From NCBI GenBank assembly GCA_019843655.1, contig JACDQD010000006.1:7804034-7868033 (forward strand): a stretch of 64,000 nt of DNA. Direction: 5' to 3'. This DNA comes from Lethocerus indicus. Taxonomy: Eukaryota > Arthropoda > Insecta > Hemiptera > Belostomatidae. A model generated the notes under the pieces. It was given only the letters and a program-made list of their open reading frames with translations, was not told where the DNA came from and did no database searches. Below are positions 10,010 through 33,056 of this stretch, in pieces. Both the position numbers and the translations under genes were made by a program. Positions within the stretch are counted from its first letter, which is position 1, and each line of letters starts with the position of its first letter.

Positions 10010-10064
<55 letters not shown>

Positions 10065-10594: not shown

Positions 10595-10715
10595 CTGAAT
10601 TTAGGTGGTGGAGAGGATTGTGCTGAGCAGAGCAATGAAAGAGAATTACCAACTAAATTCCTATTTATACCAATTTTTTCTTCCTTTAACCGAGGAGACA
10701 TACTTGTATGGGGAT
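10595..10715 (-). CDS. Dscam1: Exon 6.32
   Basis: 121 nt, acceptor tttcag|ATCC, donor TTCAG|gtaggt. It encodes DPHTSMSPRLKEEKIGIN and then LSLLCSAQSSPPPKFR. Its CSAQ motif resembles 6.31 and 6.27, and SSPPPKF replaces the usual GFPxPxF. The start Asp comes from the split codon G|AT. Confidence 0.9.
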
Positions 10716-11727
10716 CTGAAAATTTTCAAATCTTCAGGGACAATTTAAAATGCACTGCATCTTCAATTACCTTATGTGTATTTACTTTTGTAAATTATTA
10801 ATATTTAAAAACTTATATTCATTATACAATTTCAAGTTTAAATGATCTATGTTCAGTTTTATATTAAAACTATTTATTATATTATTTGAACTGTTTCACA
10901 TTATCTGACTACCTGAACGTAAGGATTAGTAAATAAAACAAAATTAATATAATTAACAAGCTCCCTTTCATCTGTTCACTACATGGCCTGTTGTATGGCA
11001 CATGCGCGCGCGCGAAAAATTCAATGTTTTTGTAGTTCATCAACGATCGTAAGTTACTAGTTTGCCCGTCAGTGGTAGTTGTGAGTCTACGTATGAATAA
11101 TGTGTAACATCGCTTCCTTCTATATGTATTTTGGTCCTGTGGATTTGTGTGTATGTGGATTCCACGGGAGTCTTCGGCCCATGTGTAATCCCATCTACCG
11201 CACTAAATCTCATTCTAATCATGAAATATGGCCGTCAAACTGGCTTTAGGTTCAGAGCATTACACTAAAAAATTGTAAATTGTTTATGTAATTTCTAAAC
11301 GCTGTTGCCAGATAACAAAAATTTGCGAATTCATAAGACGATTTGCACATTCATAACCCAGTGACCCCGGTGGGTCGATTATTCAGTGACGCCACATATC
11401 GATATATCGATCCCGCTCATACAGGTAACTAAATTTTGACTAACACCAATAGAGTTTTAATATATTAATTATTCATCATACTTTCATATTTTTTTCATAA
11501 TTCTAAGAACGTAACGATTCCAGGGAATATAATATGGAAATTTATTACAGTTTAAAAAAAAATGTTTGGAAGATACATATGATTTCATAATGTGAAAAGT
11601 TTCAGATCCAGGTAATTTAAAATTATGCTGCCAGTTTATGAATGCATGAATAATTCTGAAAGCCTCATCGAAAAAATAACAATGGAAAAACTGTATATAT
11701 TTAAAATAATTACTTAAGAAATGGTAC
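10716..11727 (-). other. Intron between 6.31 and 6.32, with atypical segment
   Basis: 1.0 kb spacer. The middle part (about 10985-11430) is richer in GC and CpG than its flanks and is listed separately. No exon 6 relic was seen. Confidence 0.6.
10985..11430. mobile_element. Possible transposon-derived segment
   Basis: Base composition differs sharply from the AT-rich surroundings: a CG dinucleotide run near 11004, a GACCC/GGGTC hairpin near 11364, repeated CAGTGAC and a self-complementary ATATCGATATATCGAT near 11396. A 60-codon minus-strand frame (11040-11222) matches nothing I recognise. No terminal repeats or target duplication could be seen, so the mobile origin is an inference from composition only. 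Confidence 0.3.
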
Positions 11728-11854
11728 CTGAAAGAAGGAGTGGGATAAGCTTGGGCTGAGCAAACTAGAGACATTGTCATACCAACAGACATTGATTTCT
11801 TCATGCTTCCAATGTCACTGTCTTTTACTCTGGGTGATATGCTTGTTTGAGACT
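11728..11854 (-). CDS. Dscam1: Exon 6.31
   Basis: 127 nt, acceptor gatgtag|AGTC, donor TTCAG|gtacca. It encodes ESQTSISPRVKDSDIGSM and then TMSLVCSAQAYPTPSFR. Ser replaces the Pro usually found at position 2. The SISPR start resembles the SMSPR of 6.32. Confidence 0.92.
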
Positions 11855-11896
11855 CTACATCAACCACATAATTGTTATTTTAATAAAATAACTGAC

Positions 11897-12020
11897 CTGA
11901 AATTAGGAAGAGGATGCCCCTGCCCTGGACATAACATTGATATGGGTGTTTGTTGTACCTTAGAAAATACAGAACTTTTCTCTACTGGAGGGATGTTAGG
12001 AGCCATACCATTTACAGGCT
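11897..12020 (-). CDS. Dscam1: Exon 6.30
   Basis: 124 nt, acceptor taacag|AGCC, donor TTCAG|gtcagt. It encodes EPVNGMAPNIPPVEKSSVF and then ISMLCPGQGHPLPNFR. Only 42 nt separate it from 6.31, too little for a normal intron between them. Confidence 0.93.
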
Positions 12021-12211
12021 CTGTTAGAAAATAAAATAAGGAGTATAAATAATGAATCAAGCCATTACATGTTCCTAACATTAAAAGTTTTAGTTTCATG
12101 AAAATGACCAATAATTTTAATTGTTATTAACGGGAATGTCTGTTTTATCAATGGAGCAATTAATTCATGTAATGACTTTAACAGTTGTAATTTTAATTCT
12201 AATTTATTCAC

Positions 12212-12335
12212 CTGAATGCTGGCAATGGGTAAGCTTGTGCCTCACACAAGAGACTGTAGAAACCACCAGATATCCATTCAAAAGAGTCCGATTTGGCAGA
12301 CTTTGGAAACTTTGGAGAGACTCGACCAACTGGCT
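12212..12335 (-). CDS. Dscam1: Exon 6.29
   Basis: 124 nt, acceptor gtgcag|AGCC, donor TTCAG|gtgaat. It encodes EPVGRVSPKFPKSAKSD and then GFYSLLCEAQAYPLPAFR, with the Ig3 Cys in place. Confidence 0.93.
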
Positions 12336-12686
12336 CTGCACCCACACAATATTTCCTACCTTCAATACCTCTCACCGTAAAGGAGAATAATATCACATGT
12401 GGATTTATAAATAATTTAATGAGTCTCTTCAGTCAATAATAATTTAAAGATATTTTTAACTGATTACTACACATGTGTGTTTAAAGGGTAAGAATTATAG
12501 AATAAAATGTTCTCAAAATGCTAAATTATTGGCAACACTATTTTCATTTAAACAATTTATCAAAAAGTATATTTGCATAATTATATTAAGAGGTAGAAAT
12601 ATTTTTCATATTTTAAACATAATTAATTCTTTACACTAACTATTTCTTTATATGAATATGCCAAATAACATTTTACCCTAAATTAC
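12336..12686 (-). other. Intron between 6.28 and 6.29
   Basis: 351 nt of AT-rich spacer with nothing recognisable. Confidence 0.6.
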
Positions 12687-12810
12687 CTTATTGAAGGAAC
12701 GGGGTACCCTTGGGCTTGACAAAGAAGACCAAAACCTTGCCCTGAATAACGGATGTATGATGAAATTTTAGTGTCACTTGAAAATGTTGGTACTTTAACG
12801 CCAACTGGTT
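12687..12810 (-). CDS. Dscam1: Exon 6.28
   Basis: 124 nt, acceptor gtttag|AACC, donor AATAAG|gtaatt. It encodes EPVGVKVPTFSSDTKISSY and then FGLLCQAQGYPVPSIR. Ile replaces the usual Phe before the split Arg codon. It is closest to 6.25 (VKxPTFS, FGLxCQAQGYPVPS). Confidence 0.93.
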
Positions 12811-14052
12811 CTAAACAAAGAATTACTTCTATAGAATTATATCTGATAGATCCTTACAGAAGATATCAAAGAAAACGCCTATTAGACAAATATTTATGAA
12901 TTAACTGAGCACTAAAACATGTAAAGAACTAGATAAACTAGATAAAAAGCCCATCTGAATACATTAACATTGTAAATTCAATTCAAACAACTATTTCTCT
13001 GTGAAATGTAAAAAATGTTTATAAATCAGAAAGCCAACGGAAAATTGAAGGTTTGGTCCTTAAGTAGACAAGCATACGTCAAATAAAATTTGTCTAGAAA
13101 ACATTAAATGTATCCACAGGACCCCTAAAGACAGAATTCAGCAGACAGCCTAAACAATACTTTGCCAGATGAATTAATACAACAAAAGTTTGTAATACCC
13201 AAAAGTTATATACCCTTTATGCACGTGTAGTAAATGATAAATGTCTTCCAAATTCCAGCATGATTTTTGTTAAAGATGATTAAACCATTCCTAGCCCAGC
13301 CAGAAATAATTAAATTAACTATTTATTTTAGAAAAGAACAGAGATAAGTAAAACCCATGAAAAGGCAGGTATTAATAACACTGATGTTTAATCATAGAGT
13401 GCTAAGAAGCCCTTCACCAATTCATCAATGAAGATGGCCTAAACAAGTATAAATTCAACACAACGATAGCCAATTAAATAGAAATTAAATGTTCACATTT
13501 GTTTAGATGGTGTACCATCTCATTGTAATACCATATAATAAAGTACGATAAATTTATATAAATACTTTAGGTTTTTATGTTAATATACTGAGAAAAGAAA
13601 TACCTATGTAATAAGGTTGGTACTAAATGACAGCAGTTACTAACTGAATTGAGGAATTACAATTTATAGTTATATAAGTAAAATATATATAAGAATTTAC
13701 CATGAACAAATACTAATCGATTTATAAAGATTTTTACTATTCAATGTAATTATATTACTAAAATTCAATTATGTGTGTAGTTTTCATTATTAATTTCATT
13801 GAGAGTTCCCAAAAATACACTATCAGTAAATCTTTTCTATCTAGATCAACAATAAAACTAATGGACAAATGTATTGTTTATACAAAATGCAGGGGAGAAC
13901 AGAAACTGTGCAGCTTAAGAAACAAAAAAGGGATAAAAGTAAAATATTAAAATAATCTCTTCAAACATCAAATTTCCCTTTTAATTCAACTCATGACTTA
14001 AATGTGAATGATTATTTAAATTTTGTATTGTTTGTAGTGTCAATTTACTTAC
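12811..14052 (-). other. Intron between 6.27 and 6.28
   Basis: 1.24 kb of AT-rich spacer. No live or dead exon 6 copy was recognised. Confidence 0.6.
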
Positions 14053-14176
14053 TTGAATGTAGGAATAGGATAGGCCTGGGCTGAACAGAATAAATCAATA
14101 GACTGATCAACGTTGCGATAAAAAAGACCACTTTTGTTGTCAGAAGAAAACTTAGGAGGCCTTGAACCTACAGGGT
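14053..14176 (-). CDS. Dscam1: Exon 6.27, junction Lys instead of Arg
   Basis: 124 nt, acceptor tgacag|ACCC, strong donor TTCAA|gtaagt. It encodes DPVGSRPPKFSSDNKSG and then IDLFCSAQAYPIPTF. The exon ends AA, so the junction codon with exon 7 becomes AAG (Lys) where every other variant gives AGG (Arg). Confidence 0.92.
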
Positions 14177-14332
14177 CTGTCAAGGAAATTTAAGTTGCAT
14201 TTCATTTACAGTCCAGTGATATGTTTGCAATCATTACATGTAATCTGATATAGGACCCCAAGTGTTATAAAAATTCTACATTTAAACTTGTAGGTATTTT
14301 TACAAAAAAAATATTAAGGAACAACTTAAAAA

Positions 14333-14336
14333 TACA

Positions 14337-14370
<34 letters not shown>

Positions 14371-14380
14371 CATAGATATA
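14333..14380. repeat. (TA)n microsatellite
   Basis: Imperfect TA/TG dinucleotide tract between 6.26 and 6.27. Confidence 0.9.
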
Positions 14381-14456
14381 CAATACAAATATTTTAACTG
14401 TTACAGTCTGTTGGCAAACATTACCTGACCTTAACATATATGTAAAATAGCAATAC

Positions 14457-14580
14457 CTGAAAGACGGAATGGGAAAACCCTGTGCTTGACAAAGGAGTGC
14501 AAGATTTTGCCTGTAATCTCGAACATAACTACTGCTTGTAGCATCATGTGAAAACACAGGTTTTTTTGCTCCAACTGGGT
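14457..14580 (-). CDS. Dscam1: Exon 6.26
   Basis: 124 nt, acceptor tggtag|ACCC, donor TTCAG|gtattg. It encodes DPVGAKKPVFSHDATSSSY and then LALLCQAQGFPIPSFR. It shows the consensus form of the family: acidic start, Pro-Val-Gly and Cys-Gln-Ala-Gln-Gly. Confidence 0.95.
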
Positions 14581-14860
14581 CTACCAATGAAAATACTTCT
14601 AAGATCTTTATCATATTTATAATGATTATGATTAATAAGGGACATTTAGTGTAATTTTAATTTAAATAAAAGTAACACTGCTGAGTAAATGTGTTTCTCT
14701 AGATTTAATATGAGATTTACAGTTCTTGGATATACAATTAAAGCATCAACCTGTATGAAAATGTTCTCAAATGAAGGAAACAATTTACATGTTTGAATGA
14801 CTTAGTTCTTATTAAAACATGTTCTTTATTATACTATATTAACTGTGAGACGAATCTCAC

Positions 14861-14984
14861 CTGAATGATGGAACTGGATACCCTTGTGCTTGACAAAATA
14901 AACCAAAAGTGGAGCCAGATAATCTTGAGAATGAATTCACCTTGTCATCATTCGAAAATGTAGGTAATTTCACTCCAACGGGGT
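14861..14984 (-). CDS. Dscam1: Exon 6.25
   Basis: 124 nt, acceptor tctctag|ACCC, donor TTCAG|gtgaga. It encodes DPVGVKLPTFSNDDKVNS and then FGLFCQAQGYPVPSFR, a close paralogue of 6.28. Confidence 0.95.
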
Positions 14985-16073
14985 CTAGAGATAGTTTTGA
15001 TAGTTATGAATTTATATAAAATTCTATCATATATTGTTCTATAAAAATGTTGCTTTATTATGAAAGATCATAAATAATGCTATGAAATGTATCATATTTG
15101 AAAAATATAGAATTAATATTTTTCACAAATATCTATTAATATTTCAATTCATAATTTATTTTATGACATTGTTTATGGATCAAAGCAGTATATCAGAAAT
15201 ATTGAATTCATAATTATGCATTATTCACATAATGGTAATTTAGTAATAGTAAATAAGAGTATAGGCAAGAAAAGTGTTAACCCATATTTGCTATGATGTA
15301 AATAAGATATATGAATAATTCATTTCCAACCAGTTTTCATTCATTTTTAATAATTATCAATTGACCTCAACATTAACATTTTTAAATCCTTTTCAGTGAG
15401 TTATTCAACTGCTGCTAGTAGCGTAGAATTCTTACTATATAAATTGTTGTGTGGATTATTAACAGCAACATAATTTAGTTTTAAAGAAAGGAAATGGGAC
15501 TCATCTTCTGAAAACACCTTCAATGTTACATGGCCTTCAGGACAATACACTATTAAATATAAACAATGGCCTAACCACAAACTTAAGGAATGGACCTAAT
15601 AAAACTCCAAACATATGCTAAACTTTTAAATAAAATTGTGAATATGATCTATAATAGATAACTGCCATTATATTTTTAAAAATCCAGATGGAAGACTGGT
15701 GTCTACATTATCAAATTAAATTTTGAACTTGTTCATTAACATCCTATGATGTTAATCAATTTTGACTTATTTATGGAAAGACCCGAGTAAAATTAAAATA
15801 AGTATCAGATAAAAATACTGAATTAGAATGAAGTTCTAGTAATGCATATAAAACATGTTAAAAAAAATTATAACTCTTAATTCAACTTTAATTGTAAAAT
15901 TATGCTTCAATGATATCATTCACAGTAATTAATAAAATCAATAGAGAGCTGTGACAATTTCAAGCATCATTCATTTCAAATGAAATTAATCTTTTAAAAT
16001 TCAGTTTTTTGGATTTAAGAACAAACTTATTTGAAATTACATGCTGTCAATTTACCAAGAAAACACTGCATAC
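14985..16073 (-). other. Intron between 6.24 and 6.25
   Basis: 1.09 kb, AT-rich, no recognisable exon copy or repeat. Confidence 0.6.
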
Positions 16074-16191
16074 CTAAATGAAGGCAAAGGGTATCCCTGA
16101 CCCTGGCATAGCAATGCAAATCCTTCATTCAATTTTCGGAAATTAAAACTTCCTTTTGCTCCCACAGTTGGAGTTTTAGCACCAACTGGTT
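16074..16191 (-). CDS. Dscam1: Exon 6.24 (shortest variant)
   Basis: 118 nt, two codons shorter than the usual 124. Acceptor gaacag|AACC, donor TTTAG|gtatgc. It encodes EPVGAKTPTVGAKGSFNF and then FALLCQGQGYPLPSFR. Confidence 0.94.
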
Positions 16192-16348
16192 CTGTTCATA
16201 CAACATAAATCTTAATACATATTGAGATCATAATTGTTATCAATTTTAACTGTAACTGTTGATGTCTAAATTGAGCATCTATATTGTCTGTACTATTAAA
16301 ATATTAATATTCTACTGTTAGCTAATGTCAATATCTAATTAAACATAC

Positions 16349-16472
16349 CTAAATGTTGGGATAGGGAAGCCTTGAGCAAGACAAAAGATTGAAAAGGGTT
16401 GGTTTTGACGCTTTACAATAATTCTTCCTTTATTATCCTCCCCAACTGCAGGCATTTTACTGCCCATTGGTT
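16349..16472 (-). CDS. Dscam1: Exon 6.23
   Basis: 124 nt, acceptor ctttag|AACC, donor TTTAG|gtatgt. It encodes EPMGSKMPAVGEDNKGR and then FSIFCLAQGFPIPTFR. Its 3' end is the best visible match (18 of 19 bases) to the inverted fragment at 28944-28984. Confidence 0.94.
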
Positions 16473-16542
16473 CTAAAGAAGAATAATTCATGTTTTTGAA
16501 CCCATATAAAGTCTACTAGATATTTTTATATATTTTTAATAC

Positions 16543-16666
16543 CTGAATGTGGGAACAGGGAATGCCTGGGTGTGGCAAAACACAGTAAGGTCTTGATGAG
16601 CAGCACGAAATATAGTGCGAGTTTTATCATCTGCAGAGAAGGCAGGAGCTTTTGCACCCATTGGAT
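16543..16666 (-). CDS. Dscam1: Exon 6.22
   Basis: 124 nt, acceptor cttcag|ATCC, donor TTCAG|gtatta. It encodes DPMGAKAPAFSADDKTR and then LTVFCHTQAFPVPTFR. It lies 70 nt from 6.23 and shares the PMG start with 6.21, 6.23, 6.18 and 6.19. Confidence 0.94.
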
Positions 16667-16890
16667 CTGAAGTCATTTAGTATATTTATAATATTCAAAA
16701 TGAATTATTTTTATGGAATCTTATTTATCCCGTATAATCAGAAAAATATAATTTCCTCTATAAACTCAAAATTACTTCTAGAAAAAATTGTATTATTTAT
16801 TTTCATATTGGGTTTTCACTGTGAAATAAACCACTACTTACGAGACATTAAATGTATTAATTATTAAATATAATTTGTTTTAAATCATAC

Positions 16891-17011
16891 CTGAATGAGG
16901 GAACAGGATAGGCCTGAGCTTGCACTATTAAAGAGAACCCTGAACCAGACTTTTGAACCACAATACTGCCTTTAGTGGCAGGAATAGTTGGTGCCTTCAC
17001 GCCCATTGGGT
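16891..17011 (-). CDS. Dscam1: Exon 6.21, lacks the Ig cysteine
   Basis: 121 nt, acceptor ttacag|ACCC, donor TTCAG|gtatga. It encodes DPMGVKAPTIPATKGSIVV and then FSLIVQAQAYPVPSFR. The codon aligned with the invariant Cys is GTG (Val). The exon otherwise has an open frame, the right length and good splice sites. An isoform using it would leave the Ig3 Cys from exon 7 unpaired. It could be a decaying exon or a tolerated variant. Confidence 0.85.
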
Positions 17012-17795
17012 CTGTAATGGTTTAGCCATGTTTCCATGATTAAGTAGATTCAATTAATTTTAAATGATAATTTAAATGAAACGGAATTTAAAAATTTGTT
17101 TAATAACTTTGGAAAATTCAGTAATATCTTATAATGACGTGTTGCGTATAATTGGAAAAAGTATATACAATTAATTTTTGTTAGTGCACATGATAACATG
17201 AAAATTTTCCGAAAATGATATCAGCATAGTATCCCACAAAACAAACTTTCATTACTAATTAGATCATAGTAGGAATGTAATAAATGTTTCTTTTACATTG
17301 CATTAATATAATTATTGATATGTATCAAATTTTTGATCACATAAACCCTGTTTATTTACTACAGTTTTATTACTCCTGAGATTCACAAAGTACCTAACTA
17401 TAACAGGAATACTAACTTATAATATTCACTTCTTATGAACCCTAAGCACAATCCCTGAGTTCATCCACATTAATATAAAAAAAGTCCATCCAATTCCTGC
17501 TTTTACAACTACCACATACCTAGCCACACATTTACCAATAAATTTGTAAAATAATGCACTATACTACTACATTACAAATAATGGAGAATTGGACTATGAA
17601 TTTTTGGCTATGTACCTAACTCACTAGACATGAAAAAACAGGTACAGCAGTTCATAAATAATACATCAATATCCAGCCCATAAAAGATAGTAAGTCAACT
17701 AATTGCACAAATAAACAATAATCAATATCCTTCCCTCTTAGTGAAGAAAGATATGAAAACACATAATGAAAACTATGACCAAAAACAAATATTAC
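17012..17795 (-). other. Intron between 6.20 and 6.21
   Basis: 784 nt of AT-rich spacer with no recognisable exon copy. Confidence 0.6.
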
Positions 17796-17919
17796 CTGAA
17801 GGATGGTACAGGAAACCCTTGAGCTGGACACAACAATCCAAAACTTTGACCTTTCTGTTTAACAAACCATAGTGATTTAGTTTCTAAAGAGAATGCAGGA
17901 CTTTTACTGCCCACGGGTT
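17796..17919 (-). CDS. Dscam1: Exon 6.20
   Basis: 124 nt, acceptor tctag|AACCC, donor TTCAG|gtaata. It encodes EPVGSKSPAFSLETKSLWF and then FGLLCPAQGFPVPSFR. It is a clear paralogue of 6.10 (SPAFSLE/GPAFSLE, FVKQ/FIKQ). Each has a second exon-like copy about 55 nt downstream: live 6.9 in one case, a relic here. Confidence 0.95.
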
Positions 17920-17974
17920 CTAGATTAAAATCAAAATTAATATTTTAATTAAGAAAAGGTTTCATGTGACAAAC

Positions 17975-18060
17975 CTGAATGGTGGGAGAGGGAAGTTTAG
18001 ATTTGTCAAATAATCACAAACCAGAAATCGACATTGGATAAACTATTCCACCATTCCATG
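17975..18060 (-). pseudogene. Dead exon 6 relic next to 6.20
   Basis: The + strand still shows the donor-side cctgaatg(g/a)tggga pattern and, further in, aaccagaaatcgac, aligning with 6.9 (23457-23580). Small deletions break the frame, and the 5' half and acceptor are not recognisable. It is a decayed duplicate of the 6.9 type. Confidence 0.75.
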
Positions 18061-19201
18061 GAAACATTTGCCAAGTTAAATAATTTTCAATGTGTATTAT
18101 ATTTTATGAATCCTTAACTATTAACTGATCACACATTCTTATTTCACAAGAAAAGAAAAATGAAACAGAAAAAAAATAAATTCAAGATGACAAAATTCTC
18201 AATATTTATTTGTGAAAATAAATTAACATTCGTCATTTAGGGACTTCAGAAATGAAAAAGCCCAACCTTCTTATGAGGTCTCCTGGGCCTGGTGCCAACC
18301 CTAGTTTCAGTATACGCTTATTCCAACTTCAGGGGTTAAACTGAAGCTCAACCACCTGAGGCCCGCTTATATAAACTGCCCCCCATGTCCTAATTGGTTA
18401 GATTAGGTTAGTTGTTAGCAGTCACCCTATCAACATTGCTCATATGATATTAACAACAATAATTTGAAAAATATTAAATACTAATGAATAACTATTTAGA
18501 AACCAGAATTAATAATGTCTCATATAATCAAAAACAACTCATACCAGTGTACAACAAAAATCCTGGCGTACATAAAAAAATAGTTTAATCTAACCTAAAA
18601 TATCTCAAAACCTATTATTTCATTTATAAATTTCAATACATGCTCTTGTTCATTGGCAGAGCTGGGACAACAAACTAGGGACTTGCCTCAGGTAAACAAT
18701 AGGAAGGGACACCAAATGAGTGACAATAAATTAATAAGTGACTTTTTTACTTAATTCTTAAATATTTTGTTCTCCAAATTGTAGTTAGGGGCGAAAATTT
18801 ATCCTCCTGCCTCAGGTGAAAATACCTCTAGGTCCAGTTTTGCTCATAGGCTTCCTCAAAATAACGAATTTTCAATGTTCTCTCCTTATTTCATTGTGTT
18901 CATTCCTGACAATTAAGTACATTTCTAAATTGAATTCTCAACTTGGTCCTAATTGTGATCATTCACATTTTTTGAGTTGTTGATTATATTTTGGCTTTGC
19001 CTATTCACCAAAATTATATCGATTTTCTCTGTATACTGAAACTTCTCCATTGGATTAAAACCCTGTGTATTTTAATACTAGCTCTGATAAAAGATAATCG
19101 TTAGCAGGTTCATTTAAATGCATTTCTGTGATTGACATTCAAATATAAAAGGAATTTTACAATTCTCAATCATATTAGAGACATTGCAATATCTCACATA
19201 C
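18061..19201 (-). other. Intron between 6.19 and 6.20
   Basis: 1.1 kb spacer. The segments near 18240-18420 and 18650-18850 are less AT-rich (for example cacctgaggcccgcttatat and two tgcctcaggt copies) and look like old repeat fragments, but no family was recognised. Confidence 0.45.
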
Positions 19202-19325
19202 CTAAATGATGGGACAGGAAAACCTTGTGCTTGACAAAGTATGTTCAGTGAAGTGCCTTCATGTTTATTCATCATCCTCCATTTGAATTCATCTCCTACA
19301 TTTGGACTTTTGCTTCCCATTGGTT
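19202..19325 (-). CDS. Dscam1: Exon 6.19
   Basis: 124 nt, acceptor gaacag|AACC, donor TTTAG|gtatgt. It encodes EPMGSKSPNVGDEFKWRM and then LNILCQAQGFPVPSFR. Confidence 0.95.
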
Positions 19326-20258
19326 CTGTTCCAGAATGCCCAAATTCATAAATATATTTAGTATTTTTCAGAGAAGACGTTTTAAGGAATAACTCAAGAA
19401 TTATCCTGCGTTCTAACACCTTTTTTAATAAACAAATATCATGTTCAACAAGAGATAAGGATGAATGGTTATGGCAATTGACTCAGTTTTTGATAGTTGA
19501 AGGTTTCACTATTGCCTTGGAAATACCATATCGTGCCCTAGGTGTATTAAGGGAAATCCTCTAAATTGAGAGTGGTCAAGGCACCTAAGTAATATATAGT
19601 ATGGTATTTGGCTTTGTACTTCATTTTGGACACCTGATGAATAGATTATCTAAGAACACACACTACTACATCATGCTTCTTATTGATTACCAGCAGAATT
19701 TCAATCACTTGAGTAATCAACTAACATATATTTCCTTATACAATAGAATTCCATTGAAGGATACCAACAAATGTTTATCCCAAAACTATTTCACATGTCT
19801 CCATAAATTTGGTGGATGCTTTAAATACATTCAATGAAACTATAAATAATAAAATATAGCGGTACCATCATTCATATTTGCAATTAACTGAAATGTGGGA
19901 ATCAAACCAAGGACTGTGTTCATGTAGGGGTGCTCTTACCTTGTCGATGTATAAGATCACCATTGACACTATACTCTCCAATCAATTGCCCCTTATTTTA
20001 CTAACATTACTAAAGAAGAGATAAAAATATGAGCACCCAGGAGAAATTTCATGTCATTGTAAATATTAATAAAAAAATTAATGAACAAAAGTGATTATAT
20101 GCAATACAAAGTTATAAAAATATAACATCACTTCAAATTATATATCAAACATAATTTATAAATATATTTATCCTTATGTATTTAATTTTTGATTAGTACA
20201 CAATGTTTCCTATATTTAACATTTTTTTTTGTTTATCCAGAACCTTAAGCTTACAAAC
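19326..20258 (-). other. Intron between 6.18 and 6.19
   Basis: 933 nt spacer. Nothing beyond the splice sites was recognised. Confidence 0.6.
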
Positions 20259-20382
20259 CTGAATGATGGGACTGGGAAGGCTTGAGACTGACAGAAAAGA
20301 CTTATACTTTCACCATTATTTCGCTCAATGATTCGAGTTTTTTCATCTTTACCAATTGCAGGTGGTTTTGCTCCCATAGGTT
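20259..20382 (-). CDS. Dscam1: Exon 6.18
   Basis: 124 nt, acceptor atgcag|AACC, donor TTCAG|gtttgt. It encodes EPMGAKPPAIGKDEKTRII and then ISLFCQSQAFPVPSFR. It is closest to 6.22 and 6.23. Confidence 0.95.
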
Positions 20383-20750
20383 CTGCATATTTTCATAATT
20401 AAACCAGTTTTTTATTTATGTTTTATATACCATTAGTGCTTAAAAGATTATGACACTAAAATTTAAAAATATACCTGTGCAAGCAATGATATGAATTCTA
20501 ATATATTATCTTTTATTTATACACCCAAAGATGAATATATTTTTCTTTTAATTTGGTTTATAGCAGATTTGTTAAAGGCTTACTAAATAAATTACAAATG
20601 GAGAAAGAATACTGTAAAATTAATTTATATAAACCTAGTAATTAATCATCCACCAATGATGCACATTTTGATCTACATGAACACTATTGCAGCAAAACAT
20701 TATTGGAATTTAAGACTGTATACTCCAAGCATATTTGTACTTAAATATAA

Positions 20751-20812
<62 letters not shown>

Positions 20813-20945
20813 AGTGATGTCTGTAATTCCAACTTTGTGAGCTCATCTAATTAAGTACTTATTAATTAAATATAGGTTTACCTCTCTTTAAGAAATAAAA
20901 AAAGTGGGGAATTGTTACTTATTTGCATTTACTTTTGCTCATTAC
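20383..20945 (-). other. Intron between 6.17 and 6.18, with TA repeat
   Basis: 563 nt of AT-rich spacer dominated by the TA tract at about 20755-20807. No exon copy was seen. Confidence 0.6.
20755..20807. repeat. (AT)n microsatellite
   Basis: About 50 bp of alternating A and T between 6.17 and 6.18. Confidence 0.95.
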
Positions 20946-21069
20946 CTAAATGATGGGTGAGGGGAACCTTGAGCCTGACAAAGCAATGAGAAACTTTGAC
21001 CGGACTTGCGGGAAATCGTTCTACTTAAATCATCAGAAGAAAAAGTTGGAGCTTTAGCTCCAACTGGCT
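20946..21069 (-). CDS. Dscam1: Exon 6.17
   Basis: 124 nt, acceptor cacag|AGCC, donor TTTAG|gtaatg. It encodes EPVGAKAPTFSSDDLSRT and then FSLLCQAQGSPHPSFR. His replaces the usual Ile, Val or Leu in the PxPSF motif. Confidence 0.94.
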
Positions 21070-21417
21070 CTGTGAAGAAAAATGTTCATGTACTTCTTAA
21101 ATCAAATTTAGGGCAATGTAAAAAATGTTGGTACAGGGATCCTGCTCTGCTTTTATTGAACATTTCTGAAATAGTATGCTATACTTAACATTTGTTCTAG
21201 AGGATAATTCTAGAGGTGGATGAGTTGTGTTTTTTACAGAGAAAAATATCATAAACTAACATAAATACATTTTACATGATAACTATGTGCCTACTTTTCT
21301 CTAATAATGCCTAAATAATCCAAACATTGACTTTCACCTCCATTAAAAGCTTGTGTGTGAATGCAGTGTATTTATTACATTTTTTCTTTTCTCAATAAAA
21401 GGAAAAATTCATCTTAC
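21070..21417 (-). other. Intron between 6.16 and 6.17
   Basis: 348 nt, no other recognisable feature. Confidence 0.6.
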
Positions 21418-21541
21418 CTAAACATCGGTATAGGGAACCCCTGAGCCTGACACAAAACACCAAAACCCTGACCAAGTTTTCTTTCAATGCCACTCCATTT
21501 GACATCAGAAGAAAGAGTAGGGACCTTTGCTCCAACAGGTT
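21418..21541 (-). CDS. Dscam1: Exon 6.16
   Basis: 124 nt, acceptor attag|AACC, donor TTTAG|gtaaga. It encodes EPVGAKVPTLSSDVKWSG and then FGVLCQAQGFPIPMFR. Confidence 0.95.
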
Positions 21542-21691
21542 CTAATATGTTTCCAAAAATTACAACCTCAATATAACTTTAAAAGCCTACCTAATATGAT
21601 TTTCAACGTTATTTCATGTTTTACAAATAAAGTCTTACACTTTTATTAAATAAAATGTAACGATAATCTACAATGACAATTCATACTTTAC

Positions 21692-21815
21692 CTAACTGAA
21701 GGAATTGGGTACCCTTGTGCTTGACAGAAAAGGGAAATGGCACCGACATTTGTTACTTCAAATGATGTTAATTTTGCCTTTGATGACAACATTGGTGGCT
21801 TAGAACCTACAGGGT
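21692..21815 (-). CDS. Dscam1: Exon 6.15
   Basis: 124 nt, acceptor tgacag|ACCC, donor GTTAG|gtaaag. It encodes DPVGSKPPMLSSKAKLTS and then ISLFCQAQGYPIPSVR. Val replaces Phe before the junction Arg. Only 47 nt separate it from 6.14. Confidence 0.94.
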
Positions 21816-21862
21816 CTGTCAATAAATTAAAATATTTATTTTCTACTAAGAGGGTTTATTAC

Positions 21863-21986
21863 CTAAATGAAGGAACTGGAAAACCCTGTGCCTGACAAAG
21901 AAGGTCAAAACTGTTACCAGAATAAGTGTCCAACCAATTAATTCTGTCAGTTTTAGCAATTTTTGGAGGCTTGCTTCCAACAGGAT
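21863..21986 (-). CDS. Dscam1: Exon 6.14
   Basis: 124 nt, acceptor aacag|ATCC, donor TTTAG|gtaata. It encodes DPVGSKPPKIAKTDRINW and then FDLLCQAQGFPVPSFR. It shares DPVGSKPP with its neighbour 6.15. Confidence 0.95.
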
Positions 21987-22069
21987 CTGTTAATGAAATA
22001 TACATGATCTATCTTTGCTTTACACAAATTTGTCATGTAGCACAAATGAATTTGATGATTGCATTTTAC

Positions 22070-22193
22070 CTAAATGATGGCACGGGAAACCCCTGAGCCT
22101 GACATAGAAGATTTTGTTTCCCACCAACTTTAGTCTTTAACCAAATTTTTGTCTCTTGGAAAGGCAAATTTGGTGCTTTTGTCCCAACTGGAT
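22070..22193 (-). CDS. Dscam1: Exon 6.13
   Basis: 124 nt, acceptor aacag|ATCC, donor TTTAG|gtaaaa. It encodes DPVGTKAPNLPFQETKIW and then QNLLCQAQGFPVPSFR. The TKAP, LPxxETK and W positions are shared with 6.12, a recent duplicate. Confidence 0.95.
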
Positions 22194-22307
22194 CTGTTAT
22201 AATAAAAAGTGAACAATTCAAAAACAGTTATACTAAACAAATAAAAAATGTGGTTATATGTAACCACAAGCCGCAACTTACAATTTGGAATATTAAGCAA
22301 GTATTAC

Positions 22308-22431
22308 CTAAATGTAGGAACAGGGAATCCTTGTGCCTGGCAAAGAAGATTATAACCCTGGCCAGAGAGTGTTTCAACCCAGACTTTAGTTTCTTTCAGT
22401 GGTAATTTTGGAGCTTTTGTTCCAACTGGTT
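22308..22431 (-). CDS. Dscam1: Exon 6.12
   Basis: 124 nt, acceptor ttcag|AACC, donor TTTAG|gtaata. It encodes EPVGTKAPKLPLKETKVW and then YNLLCQAQGFPVPTFR. Confidence 0.95.
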
Positions 22432-22487
22432 CTGAATTAATTTGATACCAAACAAAAGTATAAATAATTAAATCCACAATTTATTAC

Positions 22488-22611
22488 CTGAATGTGGGCA
22501 CGGGAAACCCCTGAGACTGACAAAGAAGTCCAAAGCTACTTCCAGTAACTTTATCAAACCAGATTTTTTTTGCTTCTGATACAAATTTTGGACCTTTTGT
22601 TCCAACTGGCT
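22488..22611 (-). CDS. Dscam1: Exon 6.11
   Basis: 124 nt, acceptor tacag|AGCC, donor TTCAG|gtaata. It encodes EPVGTKGPKFVSEAKKIW and then FGLLCQSQGFPVPTFR. It lies 56 nt from 6.12 and, with 6.12 and 6.13, forms a run of related exons. Confidence 0.95.
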
Positions 22612-23280
22612 CTGTAGTATGACATACCAGATATTTAAATCTGTTGTTGGATAAATGTAGAGTACCGAATATGTAATATTATTATTATTATTTATAACAT
22701 AGTGTTCAAAAATGACCCAGTTAAAGTATAATTACAAAATATATTTTAAACTCATAATAAAAAATTAAATAATAATAAATTTCTGTTAATCATACTACAA
22801 CAGTTGATAGTACTGAAATACCTACATTAAACTAAAACTTTTTTTCTTAAGTTTTATTGAACCAAGGCAAACTGAGCGCATTTGACTTCATGGAATTTAT
22901 ATTAATTGGTCTATAACCTAAATCTATATTGTAACATATATTACTGTCATTTTACATGAAATAATTGAATGCCTGTTTACAAAGCGTGGTTAATTGTTAT
23001 TGACTCACCAATTCTATCATAAAAACAATGTAAATGCCGAGTTATAATTTTATTTATTCCAAAGTAATGACACTGATTTTGTATTTATAAGGGAACTATG
23101 TTAATACTCTTTATATTAATTATTTGGGAAATGTTTGAACAGTATTACATTTTGGATGCTGATTTCATACTCAGAGCTTGTTGAGCATTAGCAACCAGAT
23201 TAAAATTAATCTTACCCACATATTTAAAATACTTAGCAGTTTTAATATAATCAAGTCATTGGCCCAATAAATATTTTTAC
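22612..23280 (-). other. Intron between 6.10 and 6.11
   Basis: 669 nt of AT-rich spacer, nothing further recognised. Confidence 0.6.
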
Positions 23281-23404
23281 CTGAATGATGGCAGTGGGTA
23301 CCCTTGAGCTGGACACAATAATGCAAAACTGTGACCCGCCTGCTTAATGAACCATATCAACTTCGCTTCCAAGGAGAATGCAGGACCTTTACTACCCACA
23401 GGCT
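23281..23404 (-). CDS. Dscam1: Exon 6.10
   Basis: 124 nt, acceptor cgtag|AGCC, donor TTCAG|gtaaaa. It encodes EPVGSKGPAFSLEAKLIW and then FALLCPAQGYPLPSFR. It is a paralogue of 6.20. Confidence 0.95.
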
Positions 23405-23456
23405 CTACGTTAAAATAACAAAAATTTTTTTAGGAATACAAAGGTATGAAACATAC

Positions 23457-23580
23457 CTGAATGATGGGACAGGATATGCTTGGGCCTGACAAAGAATCGC
23501 AAAACCAGAATCGACTCGACGTTGGAATGAACTACTCTGTAAATCCGTAGAAAATGTTGGACCCTTTGCACTGACTGGTT
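23457..23580 (-). CDS. Dscam1: Exon 6.9
   Basis: 124 nt, acceptor tacag|AACC, donor TTCAG|gtatgt. It encodes EPVSAKGPTFSTDLQSSS and then FAILCQAQAYPVPSFR. It lies 52 nt from 6.10. Its dead counterpart beside 6.20 is at 17975-18060. Confidence 0.95.
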
Positions 23581-23657
23581 CTGTATGATTAAACCAAATA
23601 TCCAAGCCAATAACCTCAATTTAGAAATAAACAATAGTAGGGGTTAGAAATATATAC

Positions 23658-23752
23658 CTGAAGTTGGGAATGGGATTAACAGCACCTGACAGAAGCCACT
23701 GTAAGACTTTTCATTCAGAAATGATATGAGTTTAGTAGCAACTATTCTTGTT
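23658..23752 (-). pseudogene. Dead exon 6 relic A0
   Basis: The 3' end still reads PIPNF with a usable-looking donor (TTCAG|gtatat), but the Cys codon region now reads LLSGAVNP, internal bases are lost and the acceptor has decayed (TGTT for GGTT). It is homologous to the relics at 24082 and 25082. Confidence 0.75.
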
Positions 23753-23874
23753 CTATTAGCTATTAAAATTAAAAAACTGATTTATCTACCTACTATTCTT
23801 GTCCAAAAATATTATGCACATTAAAATGGATACAAATAATTCATTTTGGTACTCATAATGACATTATGACTAAC

Positions 23875-23998
23875 CTGAAAACTGGAACAGGAAAACCCTG
23901 AGATGGGCAAAGTAATGTCACACTGACAGCAACTGAACTATCAACTGTCCTACTTTTATCCCCAGTAGTTAATTTTGGTCTTACACTTCCTTCTGGCA
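23875..23998 (-). CDS. Dscam1: Exon 6.8, Val start
   Basis: 124 nt, acceptor tttag|TGCC, donor TTCAG|gttagt. The junction codon G|TG gives Val where almost all variants give Glu or Asp: VPEGSVRPKLTTGDKSRT, then VTLLCPSQGFPVPVFR. It is almost identical to 6.7 and 6.6. Confidence 0.95.
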
Positions 23999-24081
23999 CT
24001 AAAGTTCATGAATATTAAGTTTTGGATGTGTCATTTACAATTACCAAAAGCTATAATATACAAAATCTGACAGATTTATAC

Positions 24082-24188
24082 CTGAAGTTGGGAATGGGAT
24101 AAACTGCATCCGACAGAAATTATGATGATTTGATGTAACGAATGATCTTATTTGGTGTTACAAGTTATCCGTGATCAACTAACTGTTT
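24082..24188 (-). pseudogene. Dead exon 6 relic A1
   Basis: The donor side reads cctgaagttgggaatggga on the + strand. The internal frame is broken and the 5' end is eroded (GTTT in place of GGTT). It lies just downstream of 6.8's acceptor side, in the same module position as the relic at 25082. Confidence 0.75.
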
Positions 24189-24534
24189 ATACATAATTCA
24201 AAATATATTACCAATGCAAGATATAAGTCACAGATGATAGATGTTAGAGGGAATGTAATGTAAATGCACTGGACCTAGGTGAGATGGTGGCAGACCAAAT
24301 TTTCCTTAATTACAAATTTCAAACAATTATAAGAGTGGAGCTCACTAACTCCAGTCTACTCATTAGATTAAAGAATTATTGTAATTGTATACTGCAATAA
24401 ATAACTAGGAGCACATAATTGAAATTCTTGAATAACTTCCAGTTGGTATTTATGCAGCATTGAAACTAATAACCTTAATACAGAATACAATAATAACCTT
24501 TATTAAAGAATATGAGAATTAAAGAACACTAAAA

Positions 24535-24640
24535 TGAAATGAAAAACCCTTGAAATCAGCAAAGCCGCATGATAGAATGATAAACTCTCTTCATATAATC
24601 AGTGGAGTTCCTGAATTTAATTTTTGGACTTATTGTAATG
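24535..24640 (-). pseudogene. Dead exon 6 relic B1
   Basis: The + strand pieces aaaaacccttgaa, cagcaaagc, gagttcctgaatttaattt and ttggacttat line up in order with the live exons 6.6-6.8. The donor, frame and acceptor are lost. Confidence 0.55.
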
Positions 24641-24876
24641 TAAAAAACTAATAAATAAGCAATAATTTATATTAAAAAGAAATCATTGAAAATGGAACAT
24701 GGATGAACTGCACCATAAGGAAGTAATTACCATAAAAAAATAATTACATCTCCAGAATAAATAATCGTTTGTAAATTTAGTTGCTGATATTCAGTAAAAA
24801 TGTTGCAGGTTCCATGAAAAAGAATGCAATTTTCTTGGACATTACTGGACGTAATCATAAAATCTCAGTGACTAAC

Positions 24877-25000
24877 CTGAACATCGGAACAGGAAAACCT
24901 TGAGATGGGCAAAGCAATGTCATACTGACATCAATTGAACTGTCAAATGTCCTAATTTTATCCCCAGTAGTTAATTTTGGCCTTACACTTCCTTCTGGCA
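24877..25000 (-). CDS. Dscam1: Exon 6.7, Val start
   Basis: 124 nt, acceptor tttag|TGCC, donor TTCAG|gttagt. It encodes VPEGSVRPKLTTGDKIRTF and then MTLLCPSQGFPVPMFR. It differs from 6.8 at few positions and is part of a tandem module about 1 kb long. Confidence 0.95.
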
Positions 25001-25081
25001 CTAAATGTCATGAATATTAAGTTTTGGGTGTAATTCACAGATGTTGAAAATTATGATAAACTAGATATGATAAATTTATAC

Positions 25082-25191
25082 CTGAAGTTGGGAATGGGAT
25101 TGAACTGCATCAGACAGATGTTATATTGATTAAATTTTAAGAATTATCTTATATGATATAACCACCATTATCCATAATCAACTAACTGGTT
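25082..25191 (-). pseudogene. Dead exon 6 relic A2
   Basis: Same donor-side sequence as relics A0 and A1, and still GGTT at the former acceptor boundary, but 110 nt long with a broken frame and no Cys codon. Confidence 0.75.
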
Positions 25192-25314
25192 ATACTCAAT
25201 TCAAAGTCACTACTACCATTTACAAATTGAAGCAAATAACATAACTATTCCAAATTACAATCATGAAAAATAAATATTACTCAAGAATAGAACTTAAAAA
25301 AAGGTAGAGTATAT

Positions 25315-25385
25315 AGACCTTAGTACTGATTAACTGTCCTTATATGGTCTACAGAGTTCTAAATTAAATTGTTGGACTTATACAT
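25315..25385 (-). pseudogene. Dead exon 6 relic B2 (partial)
   Basis: The + strand aactgtcc ... gagttctaaattaaattgtt ggactta corresponds to the 5' half of the 6.6-6.8 type and to relic B1. The donor half is gone. Confidence 0.45.
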
Positions 25386-25781
25386 AAAATAGAAAAAAAT
25401 TTCTGAACCAGCAATTCGGATGAAGTACACAATAAAGGAATCACATTACAAAAGAAATTAAATAAAACCAATAGGTATCATATTTTTTTCAATCTCCTGT
25501 CTCTTCTCACTGTTTAAATCATTTGCTAAAGCAAAAGAGAGGAAACTGAAGATAGAAAAAAAAATAGTATTTCAAACTTTGCAGACTACATAACAGGTAT
25601 TCCAAACTAACAAAATAGATATTATGGATTACAACTGGAATCCTTATGAGAAAATAATTTACTGCTGCAGAACAGGTAATTCAATTCATTTACTTGACTA
25701 CTATCACTCAATAAAAATGTTGCAGATAGAAAAAAATCAATTTTGACATCTGAATGTAATCATAAGGATTCAATGACTAAC

Positions 25782-25905
25782 CTGAACATTGGAACAGGAA
25801 AACCTTGAGATGGGCAAAGCAATGTCACACTCAGAGCAACTGAACTGTCAAATGTCCTACTCTTATCTCCAGTTGGAAATTTTGGTCTTACACTTCCTTC
25901 TGGCT
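25782..25905 (-). CDS. Dscam1: Exon 6.6
   Basis: 124 nt, acceptor tctag|AGCC, donor TTCAG|gttagt. It encodes EPEGSVRPKFPTGDKSRTF and then VTLLCPSQGFPVPMFR. It keeps the acidic start that 6.7 and 6.8 lost. Confidence 0.95.
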
Positions 25906-25969
25906 CTAGATTTTATGAATATTAAGGTTTGGGTTTGTTATTATATATAGATCCTTGGGTGATTATTAC

Positions 25970-26030
25970 CTGAATGTGTAGGATGGGATTGTCTGCTCTT
26001 AAGTGACAAAAGATATACTGAAACCGAAAT
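25970..26030 (-). pseudogene. Dead exon 6 relic, 3' end only
   Basis: A donor-like TTCAG|gtaata and a PIL remnant remain, cut short by the neighbouring live exon 6.5. Confidence 0.55.
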
Positions 26031-26041
26031 ATTTAACTCAC

Positions 26042-26168
26042 CTGAAGGTAGGAACTGGAAATGACTGCCCGGGACAAATAAAAGTAATACTCTCATCCAT
26101 TGCAATATTCACAAATGTCAAACTTCTGTGCACATTTGGAAACTTTGGCTTTGTTGTTCCAACAGGTT
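26042..26168 (-). CDS. Dscam1: Exon 6.5
   Basis: 127 nt, acceptor actag|AACC, donor TTCAG|gtgagt. It encodes EPVGTTKPKFPNVHRSL and then ITFICPGQSFPVPTFR. Confidence 0.94.
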
Positions 26169-26389
26169 CTAGTCAGAGGATAATTTATTTTTCTTATTTA
26201 CCTTATTTCAGATATGGGGAACTCCTGTGCCGGTGACAAATTCAGACACTCAAAAAAGTATTCTATATCCTTTATTCATTTATCCCGACCAATAGAAAGA
26301 TAAATTAGGATTTTTTTTCATAAAATAAAGTCACAACTTCCACATATTTTACTACAGAAGTATGAGTTCAACCTAAGGTTTTATTTTAC

Positions 26390-26513
26390 CTGAAGTTTGG
26401 AATGGGAAATGCTTGTGCTGGACACTGAAGGGCTAATGGTTTTCCTTGTGTCAATATGAATGTCCTGCTTTTATCAATCATGGGAAATTTAGGACTAGCA
26501 CTCCCCACAGGAT
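26390..26513 (-). CDS. Dscam1: Exon 6.4
   Basis: 124 nt, acceptor tacag|ATCC, donor TTCAG|gtaaaa. It encodes DPVGSASPKFPMIDKSRTF and then LALQCPAQAFPIPNFR. Confidence 0.95.
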
Positions 26514-26739
26514 CTGTACATTTATTTACTAATTAATGACAGTATTCTAATAACATTATCTTGGGCAATGTAATCACTACCTGGAAGTTGGATAATTACA
26601 ATGCCTTAAAACAAAGGAGGATTAATTCAATCCATATCCAAAAAAATAGGATATTTAGTTATAAGAATATTTGAACAACCTATTGTTATGAATTTATGGA
26701 ATGATCATTGCTAGATGAAACACTGTCAGTTCACATCAC

Positions 26740-26863
26740 CTGAATGAAGGAAGGGGAAATGCTTGTGCTGGACACAATAGAGCGATGCCCACATCTTGAA
26801 ATGCAATAAAACCATGCGTGTTGTCCTTAGTTGCAAATTTAGGGCCTGTACTTCCAACTGGTT
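26740..26863 (-). CDS. Dscam1: Exon 6.3
   Basis: 124 nt, acceptor gttaag|AACC (AAG rather than CAG or TAG), donor TTCAG|gtgatg. It encodes EPVGSTGPKFATKDNTHGF and then IALLCPAQAFPLPSFR. Confidence 0.94.
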
Positions 26864-27662
26864 CTTAACAACCAATCATAAGTATTATGTTTTGGTCTTA
26901 AATAATTGAGTTCTGTAGATTCAACGCAATGTAATTGTAATACAATTAGAATAGGCATATTAGGTCATTGATCAGTAACATATTGATCATAATTTATGGT
27001 AGACATGTAGAATATTTTGAAATCAATTTCTTCTTAGAGAAATAATAATCTTTTTTTATGGAATAAGTAAGTGAAGAAGCAGATTTACAGCAGATTTTCA
27101 CAAACACCTTTCATGCCTTAGAAGATAAGCCAATAATTAGTTTTCTGACATCAAACACGGTGCAATGTAAAAAGGAAGACAACTGTCTTTGTCATCACGG
27201 AATGATATTATGAGAGTACAATAAACAAATACACATATTGAGTTGAGTTTTCTCAATATTGTAAGAAAGGTCGTTTATCCACAAGTTCCATGTTAAATAC
27301 TGTGTTCACTTAAATATGGACAATATGGGTACTCCATGCACTTAACTATGAACAGATTTAAGTAATTAATTATAACTAAGATTCAGATATAACAAACCAA
27401 CAAATAACTGACTGAGAAATTTAAAAATAATAGATCAATAAAAACTCATGAATAAAACTTTCCAAGTAATAATTATTTACAAAAACGAAAAAAACGAGTG
27501 AAAGCACTCCTCAATGAGCACCCCTATATGGGGTAGAGCATCCCTATAAAAATAGCACTGATTTCATTGGCAATTACTTTCCAGCTCCATATAGCCACTG
27601 ATGGTTACACAGCACGCATATTAATATGCAAGAAGCGATTTGCTTTTATCCAAGCAGTTTAC
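26864..27662 (-). other. Intron between 6.2 and 6.3
   Basis: 799 nt spacer with no exon copy. A CCCC/GGGG mini-hairpin (ccctatatggggt, near 27523) is the only local structure noted. Confidence 0.6.
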
Positions 27663-27786
27663 CTATAAGTTGGAACAGGAAAGCCTTGACCAGGGCAGAG
27701 CATTGTTACTGGTAAACTTTCAATAGATCTGAATCCACGACTGTCGTCCATAGTTGGAAACTTTGGAGTAGTACTCCCAACTGGGT
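27663..27786 (-). CDS. Dscam1: Exon 6.2
   Basis: 124 nt, acceptor ttaaag|ACCC, donor TATAG|gtaaac. It encodes DPVGSTTPKFPTMDDSRGF and then VTMLCPGQGFPVPTYR. Tyr replaces Phe before the junction Arg. Confidence 0.94.
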
Positions 27787-28116
27787 CTTTAAAAAAATAT
27801 TATATTCACTACAAAATCAGTTAGTGGAGTTAATAGTGCGTTGTTTAATATTGTAAGGAGTTAATATTAAATTAAGAAGAAGAAGATAATAATTAAATAT
27901 GTCACTCATGGTCTCCATTGGTGTCTGGAAAGAACTGCATTACCGTGAAATACCCCAGATAATAACAAATGAAGAAAGAGAGCAGAGGAAATACAAATTA
28001 CCTATTATAATTAGTATTCATGTGCTGATTTCAATTTGTTTGTGCGTATTTGTAACGTACATATAACACTGTGCCCTGAGAAACTGTTTCACCAGTCCCG
28101 AATAAATGGAAATTAC
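27787..28116 (-). other. Intron between 6.1 and 6.2
   Basis: 330 nt, nothing recognised apart from splice sites. Confidence 0.6.
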
Positions 28117-28240
28117 CTGAAGGATGGAACAGGGAACCCCTGGGCTGGACACTGCATGGCAAAACTGAATCCTTGATGAGAGATAAAACCATGTGAATTC
28201 CCAACAGTGGAAAACTTGGGCACTGAGCTTCCAACAGGGT
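28117..28240 (-). CDS. Dscam1: Exon 6.1 (first exon 6 variant)
   Basis: 124 nt, acceptor gctaag|ACCC, donor TTCAG|gtaatt. It encodes DPVGSSVPKFSTVGNSHGF and then FAMQCPAQGFPVPSFR. It lies about 1.96 kb after exon 5. It is closest to 6.3 (HGF) and 6.2 (PKF). Confidence 0.95.
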
Positions 28241-28943: not shown

Positions 28944-28984
28944 TTTGTCATCCGGCAGCAGGGGTACCCTATCCCAACATTCAG
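28944..28984 (+). pseudogene. Inverted exon 6 3'-end fragment (antisense to the gene)
   Basis: On the + strand, opposite to all other exons, the sequence reads VIRQQGYPIPTF and then CAG|gc, matching the 3' end of exon 6 variants (LLCQAQGYPIPTFR). Its reverse complement CCTGAATGTTGGGATAGGG matches 6.23 at 18 of 19 bases. In the pre-mRNA it would be complementary to exon 6 donors. No 5' half is visible. Confidence 0.7.
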
Positions 28985-28999
28985 GCTTATGCTCATTAC

Positions 29000-29108
29000 A
29001 AAAAATGTTTCAACATTTTATTTCTTAAAATCTCAAGAACATCACAAAACAACACATGATGACTTTTTTTTTATCATGAGATTAAATTATAATGTTGAAA
29101 CATTTTTT
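29000..29108. repeat. Inverted repeat, 18-bp perfect arms
   Basis: Arms 29000-29017 (AAAAAATGTTTCAACATT) and 29091-29108 are exact reverse complements around a 73-nt loop. The loop itself has a CATGAT/ATCATG mini-stem. It begins 16 bases after the inverted exon 6 fragment. Confidence 0.9.
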
Positions 29109-29469
29109 CTAAAATATAACTCAATTCATTTTAAAACTATTAATTATTTAAGCTATTATTAGTTCAATTTTGTTACTATAACTAAAATATTTTTTAATTG
29201 TATATAGTAGCTCATAAGTGAAAAAGAAATGAATGTGACAAATTGATAAAATGATACAAGTGAGATAACAAAATAATACCAAGTAATGAACTACCTTGAT
29301 TTGGTTTAATATAAAATATTTAAATGTATCCATAAAAATAATGACATAGCATAAATATGAATCTTAAATGTAATACTTTTCTTTATTAATAATTTCCTAG
29401 TAGTCTTCTCTAGGCAACACAATTAATAAATACATTTCATTATTCATAAAGAAAATATGTTAATGATTT

Positions 29470-30198: not shown

Positions 30199-30348
30199 CA
30201 GTGATGACTAATCGACCCTTAGTAGCACTCAATCGTGTTTCCCCAGTAAGCCTGTGTTTGGTTCTGCATTGGTAAGACTTGAAACCATCCTCAGGTCCAA
30301 CATCACGAATGTGCAATTCTCCAGATGGGAGTACCAAGTATTTTCCAT
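30199..30348 (-). CDS. Dscam1: Constitutive exon 5: second half of Ig2
   Basis: 150 nt, acceptor atacag|ATGGAA, donor ATCACTG|gtaagt, phase 1 in and out. It encodes DGKYLVLPSG, then ELHIRDVGPEDGFKSYQC (second Ig2 Cys) and RTKHRLTGETRLSATKG, ending RLVIT. It is almost the Drosophila sequence. It lies between the exon 4 and exon 6 clusters and splices to one member of each. Confidence 0.98.
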
Positions 30349-32951: not shown

Positions 32952-33056
32952 CTGGAACGAAACGAACGACCAAAATCGGATCATTGAATCGAAGGAATGG
33001 CCTAGAGGAGCTGGAGGAAGCCGGACTGTTCAGGGAGCACCGAATCTGAGGTTTAC

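Follow-up and report, generated by a model that had tools for sequence, protein, structure and literature searches.

The locus described here raises the question why the intron between exon 5 and exon 6.1 of an insect Dscam1 gene carries a piece of exon 6 in the opposite orientation, and whether this piece takes part in the choice among the exon 6 variants. We investigated the whole stretch of 64 000 nt from Lethocerus indicus, referred to as the window. The gene, a Dscam1, lies on the minus strand, and in exon 5 the minus-strand translation of 30197-30346 searched against the PDB returned Drosophila Dscam chains with a best E of 1.8e-28. For the exon 6 cluster a motif search gave 37 exon ends, from which one end near 25082 was dropped as it has no acceptor, while exon 6.21 (16891) was added. 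The resulting number of 37 variants is the same as in a preliminary description of this DNA. Exon starts were placed at the acceptor closest to the common length, with no transcript support used. The features needed in the following are:

30199..30348, minus strand: constitutive exon 5, with boundaries set by eye
28117-28240, minus strand: exon 6.1, the first variant after exon 5
6881..28240, minus strand: exon 6 cluster with 37 variants, whose 3' ends are predicted to be further partners of the docking site
28947..28985, plus strand: inverted fragment, i.e. the complement of the docking site, GTCATCCGGCAGCAGGGGTACCCTATCCCAACATTCAGG, which is VIRQQGYPIPTFR in the exon 6 frame

Several variants show features of their own. 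Exon 6.21 (16891-17011) has LIVQAQ in place of LLCQAQ and thereby lacks the conserved cysteine of the other variants; judging from its translation, the Ig disulphide may be missing or the exon may be dying. Exon 6.36 (7362-7482) has a GC donor, while the remaining 36 variants have GT. Exons 6.6, 6.7 and 6.8 (23875-25905 of the window) are 89-91% identical and represent a recent duplication.

The fragment was indeed found between exon 5 and exon 6.1 and antisense to the gene, as the preliminary description had stated: the plus strand reads VIRQQGYPIPTFR, and the minus strand carries the gene. The closest exon is 6.23 with 18 of 19 bases, which reproduces the earlier value. Compared with a nucleotide profile of all 37 exons the fragment reached 17.9 bits (E 1.2e-4 for 64 kb, 3.6e-6 for intron 5 alone) and was the top non-exon match in the window, the runner-up scoring 9.0 bits. 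As controls we used 60 dinucleotide-shuffled windows, in which the best profile matches had a mean of 4.9 and a maximum of 9.6 bits, and the reversed window, which gave 1.8 bits. Profiles built without 6.23, from either exon half or from the exons before gaps of at least 160 nt still gave 16.6-18.0 bits, and the first two show that the likeness is independent of 6.23 and of any one half. What follows the fragment is not the regular start of a donor that had been reported: a C comes after AGG, and the donor position therefore reads AG|GC, not AG|GT. The exon 4 cluster of the same gene occupies 31385-39178, where a profile of 15 variants found 16 matches on the minus (sense) strand, 15 of them also detected by motif. 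No antisense match above 2.5 bits was observed there, from which we conclude that such exon likeness is not a general property of these clusters.

Next, we compared the fragment with the exon 6 anchor of flies, a sequence of 42 bases in the intron between exon 5 and exon 6.1 that is reported to be identical in six Drosophila species (Anastassiou, PMC1431710). Conservation was judged against this printed anchor alone. Two features are distinguished at the site:

28964..28986, minus strand: docking-site core, GCCTGAATGTTGGGATAGGGTAC, identical in 23 of 23 bases to part of the 42-base Drosophila anchor
28950..28990, minus strand: wider docking segment for the predicted pairing, whose window 28990-28955 tops the 214 windows of intron 5

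The wider segment includes a part that does not belong to the fly anchor and is likewise complementary to exon 6 ends. The identity of the core together with its position in the intron argues that the fragment is the docking site and not a private duplication. We therefore regard it, with a probability of about 95%, as the canonical docking site for exon 6 of Dscam1, at the position known for it downstream of exon 5 and ahead of exon 6.1. In the pre-mRNA it would pair with a single selector at any given time, whereby one exon 6 would be spliced in. The preliminary description had thought of the docking site on account of the position; the agreement goes further than position, since the core is the fly sequence. 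It had placed the fragment at 28944..28984, which is the same place, although the fly-identical part reaches 2 bases beyond. When the core was searched with up to 3 mismatches in the insect's own genome (427 Mb, that is 426.8 Mb in 209 contigs), one match was found among the best candidates scored. The 23-base core had no match in genome_contigs and a 19-base core none in viral_contigs; the 19-base core matched two bacterial contigs in genome_contigs, which we take for chance, and none of the phage records was related. A mobile element as carrier was considered and rejected, as a 231-bp query spanning the fragment and its surroundings, searched in the own genome, matched, among the matches listed, itself and its own hairpin inverted.

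To evaluate the pairing expected of a docking site, we split intron 5 into 214 windows of 36 nt and calculated for each the duplex energy with the 150 nt upstream of every exon relative to shuffled targets; the energies leave out folding of either partner. Window 28990-28955 ranked first with an excess of -3.26 kcal/mol (SD over windows 0.54), and ranks 2-4 were taken by windows overlapping it. The ungapped score of the whole set was 821, compared to a mean of 713 and a maximum of 801 for 100 base-shuffled sites. Regarding the exons one by one, upstream pairing had p<0.05 in 10 of 37 and p<=0.007 in 8 of 37, and the latter have a strong predicted intronic selector 30-97 nt upstream:

26199..26234, minus strand: predicted selector of 6.5, 30 nt upstream, -35.8 kcal/mol, p 0.003
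25967..25998, minus strand: predicted selector of 6.6, 61 nt upstream, -35.5 kcal/mol (longer form 25967-26029, -39.2 kcal/mol, p 0.003)
25079..25116, minus strand: predicted selector of 6.7, 78 nt upstream, -38.2 kcal/mol, p 0.003
24079..24114, minus strand: predicted selector of 6.8, 80 nt upstream, -39.1 kcal/mol, p 0.003
23651..23691, minus strand: predicted selector of 6.9, 70 nt upstream, -35.6 kcal/mol, p 0.007
21122..21151, minus strand: predicted selector of 6.17, 52 nt upstream, -31.2 kcal/mol, p 0.003
17968..18026, minus strand: predicted selector of 6.20, 48 nt upstream, -38.1 kcal/mol, p 0.007
7580..7618, minus strand: predicted selector of 6.36, 97 nt upstream, -34.7 kcal/mol, p 0.003

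A sliding scan of the cluster gave nine sites outside the exon ends with -30 kcal/mol or better, of which eight are located in the 100 nt ahead of an exon (P 1.9e-5, binomial, the zone up to 100 nt upstream of exons making up 20% of the intron sequence) and the ninth lies 362 nt upstream of 6.33. As 6.7, 6.8 and 6.9 have selectors that are near copies of one another and exons 6.6-6.8 are so similar, these represent fewer than eight independent events; with the three selectors counted once, 6 of 7 sites are near exons and the same binomial gives P of about 4e-4. Outside the cluster, in less AT-rich sequence, 26 sites also reached -30 kcal/mol (the 6.37 end excluded). For the 37 exons the tally is thus 8 with a strong intronic selector, 9 more near an exon end and 20 with neither, i.e. 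with no strong intronic selector within 200 nt and no exon end within 160 nt. For these 20 exons the criterion may be too strict, the selectors may lie farther off, or there may be another mode of choice; a second docking site serving them was also considered and found unconvincing (best of 160 windows, z -2.72). For D. melanogaster, 41 of 48 selector sites were accepted by the score used in PMC1431710, which reports that fly selectors lie on average 60-70 nt upstream of the exons.

The preliminary description had proposed complementarity to exon 6 3' ends and donors and had suggested a duplex prediction against all 37 exons as a check. This prediction agreed: 35 of the 37 exon 6 3' ends pair with the docking site at -30 kcal/mol or better, the two below this value being 6.31 (-25.7 kcal/mol) and 6.32 (-27.6 kcal/mol), and the register is nearly constant, from about exon -35 to donor +3. 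Window 28990-28955 was first of the 214 for exon pairing as well, with an excess of -12.17 (SD over windows 1.22). Exon 3' ends out-pair most upstream introns at the docking site, which the standard model does not demand. We observed that exons before a gap of less than 160 nt (n=10, mean -41.9) pair better than the rest (n=26, mean -38.0; p 0.031), that the same is true for gaps of less than 100 nt (n=6 versus 30, p 0.040), and that gap length correlates with exon-end pairing over 36 exons (Spearman 0.37, p 0.025), these p-values being modest, overlapping and uncorrected. Better pairing before short gaps fits the use of exon ends as selectors. Nine exons (6.10, 6.12-6.16, 6.23, 6.24 and 6.31) lack a strong intronic selector and are separated from the preceding exon by 42-157 nt, and our findings suggest that exon ends may serve as selectors, as has been predicted in beetles. 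The pairing geometry would also allow the donors to be masked, and such masking is possible.

By analogy to the fly system, pairing would drive the choice of the exon. The docking site would base-pair in the pre-mRNA with one selector at a time, the intervening variants would be looped out, exon 5 would be drawn close to the variant just downstream, and the variant brought near in this way would be spliced in as the single exon 6. If exon ends take part, the exon end of variant N-1 would be the selector for variant N and its own donor would be covered meanwhile, which would exclude the neighbouring exon directly.

Two other explanations of the fragment and its pairing have to be weighed against this assignment. 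The fragment could be a harmless or home-grown inverted duplication, as the preliminary description had considered: a private copy of an exon 6 end without function would show, on the opposite strand, the likeness to exon 6 ends observed at 17.9 bits, and the 5' part (28950-28963) is absent from the fly anchor. However, a neutral piece of intron would not keep 23 consecutive fly-identical bases since the common ancestor, and the docking window has an excess of pairing with upstream sequence. For the core such a duplication is ruled out by the identity with flies, and we give it hardly any weight as an account of the site. More can be said for a site that mainly pairs with exon 3' ends and covers their donors, and would thus act as a repressor of the paired exons and not as an activator of the next exon. 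The 35 strongly pairing exon ends, nearly all in one register (-35 to +3), and the large exon pairing excess over the other windows (-12.17, SD 1.22) would both be expected from a repressor. Yet the eight predicted intronic selectors sit upstream of exons in donor-free positions, the exon ends before short gaps are those that pair better (p 0.031 and p 0.040), which fits selector use, and the fly site is described as an activator (PMC8787164). Taken together, a repressor seems improbable to us.

The likeness of the docking site to the exons is itself in need of explanation. In the frame of the exon its complement translates as YPIPTFR, and the printed fly anchor (PMC1431710), read backwards, contains TACCCTATCCCAACATTCAGG, which gives YPIPTFR in the same frame, so that the likeness must be old. 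The fly Dscam chain (3dmk, isoform 1.30.30) has PAQGYPVPVFR at the exon 6 end. The source may be an inverted copy of an exon end, a later fit to exon ends, or chance, and our codon tests were indecisive in this respect. Pairing was stronger with the actual exon codons than with permuted ones (z -3.0, 0 of 200), also with the last codon fixed (z -2.6, 1 of 300). However, the latter value (z -2.58) is also attained by 17 of 100 synonymous variants of the docking site because the exons are paralogues, and we therefore do not claim codon-level selection for pairing in spite of its strength against the simple nulls. The observed pairing energy was reached by none of 100 synonymous docking variants, a result confounded by G+C content. 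In three of four versions of a third-base test, the docking complement fitted the exons no better than synonymous variants did (P 0.46, 0.20 and 0.25); in the fourth, with six fly-conserved codons and wobble, the fit was better than expected (P 0.0024).

These results leave room for a docking site that is not derived from an exon and merely suits the pyrimidine-rich exon end by chance or convergence, a proposition that we take seriously while holding it at somewhat worse than even odds. It agrees with the three indifferent third-base versions and with the 17 synonymous variants that match the permutation result. It does not readily explain why the fragment scores 17.9 bits when 60 shuffled windows gave at most 9.6, why reading frame and splice-junction register are exact, why YPIPTFR appears in frame in the fly anchor where fly exon 6 ends are alike (PAQGYPVPVFR, 3dmk), or why the fourth third-base version departs from expectation. 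Tentatively, we consider instead that the docking site goes back to the 3' end of an exon 6 variant, copied in inverted orientation, and that exon 3' ends were also the source of the selectors, whether still in place or left over from dead exons upstream of living ones; this origin, too, we would put somewhat below an even chance. AGGT, as in a live donor, is present in seven of the eight intronic selectors, though AGGC would be the best pairing partner for the docking site. The selector of 6.7 reads CLMQFNPIPNFR and then GT, and the exon end near 25082 that was dropped from the count falls inside it. Exon-like intronic selectors are consistent, as a post-hoc observation, with relics of dead exons. 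The idea that the docking site is a copied exon was not found among the titles and abstract openings from a literature search, by which we do not claim its absence from print.

Directly 5' of the docking site, at 28996-29112, we observed a hairpin with 28-nt arms that are 89% complementary:

28991..29125, minus strand: long hairpin, putative counterpart of the locus control region, -32.1 kcal/mol, z -4.11, 0 of 200 shuffles

Folding of a 761-nt region gave a z of -5.28 with 20 shuffles, and no second copy of the hairpin in the own genome was present among the matches listed. In flies, the stretch from exon 5 to the docking site is reported to contain a structured locus control region (PMC8042237; PMC8787164), of which the hairpin is a possible counterpart.

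The docking site itself was to be expected and extends a system known since 2005-2006 to a further insect. The less familiar part is that the docking site, read backwards, resembles the end of the exons it chooses among. If this were true across arthropods, the best-known exon chooser based on RNA would have a simple origin: with one exon end inverted into the upstream intron, each tandem copy of the exon would at once be a competitor, and pairing could cover the donor of the neighbouring exon, which would be a route to mutual exclusion.

Compared to the Drosophila Dscam1 exon 6 docking site (PMC1431710), the site described here is found in the same gene and the same intron, with 23 of 23 core bases and a similar selector distance, whereas the printed flanks of the core differ. 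A further difference is that by our criterion a strong intronic selector is found for 8 of 37 exons; the strong pairing with exon 3' ends is a prediction for the present cluster. For Dscam1 exon 6 of Coleoptera, PMC8042237 reports selectors predicted to be partly or wholly exonic where introns are short, which resembles the situation of our nine exons, although the variants are mostly spaced farther apart in the present cluster, with 10 of 36 gaps shorter than 160 nt. In the stem-loop duplication model (Ivanov and Pervouchine 2018, PMC6071210), too, docking-selector systems arise from exon duplication. The main text of that paper does not use the words inverted, antisense or reverse complement, and as presented there one arm of an intronic stem-loop is duplicated, whereas the likeness observed here would make the docking site an inverted copy of an exon end.
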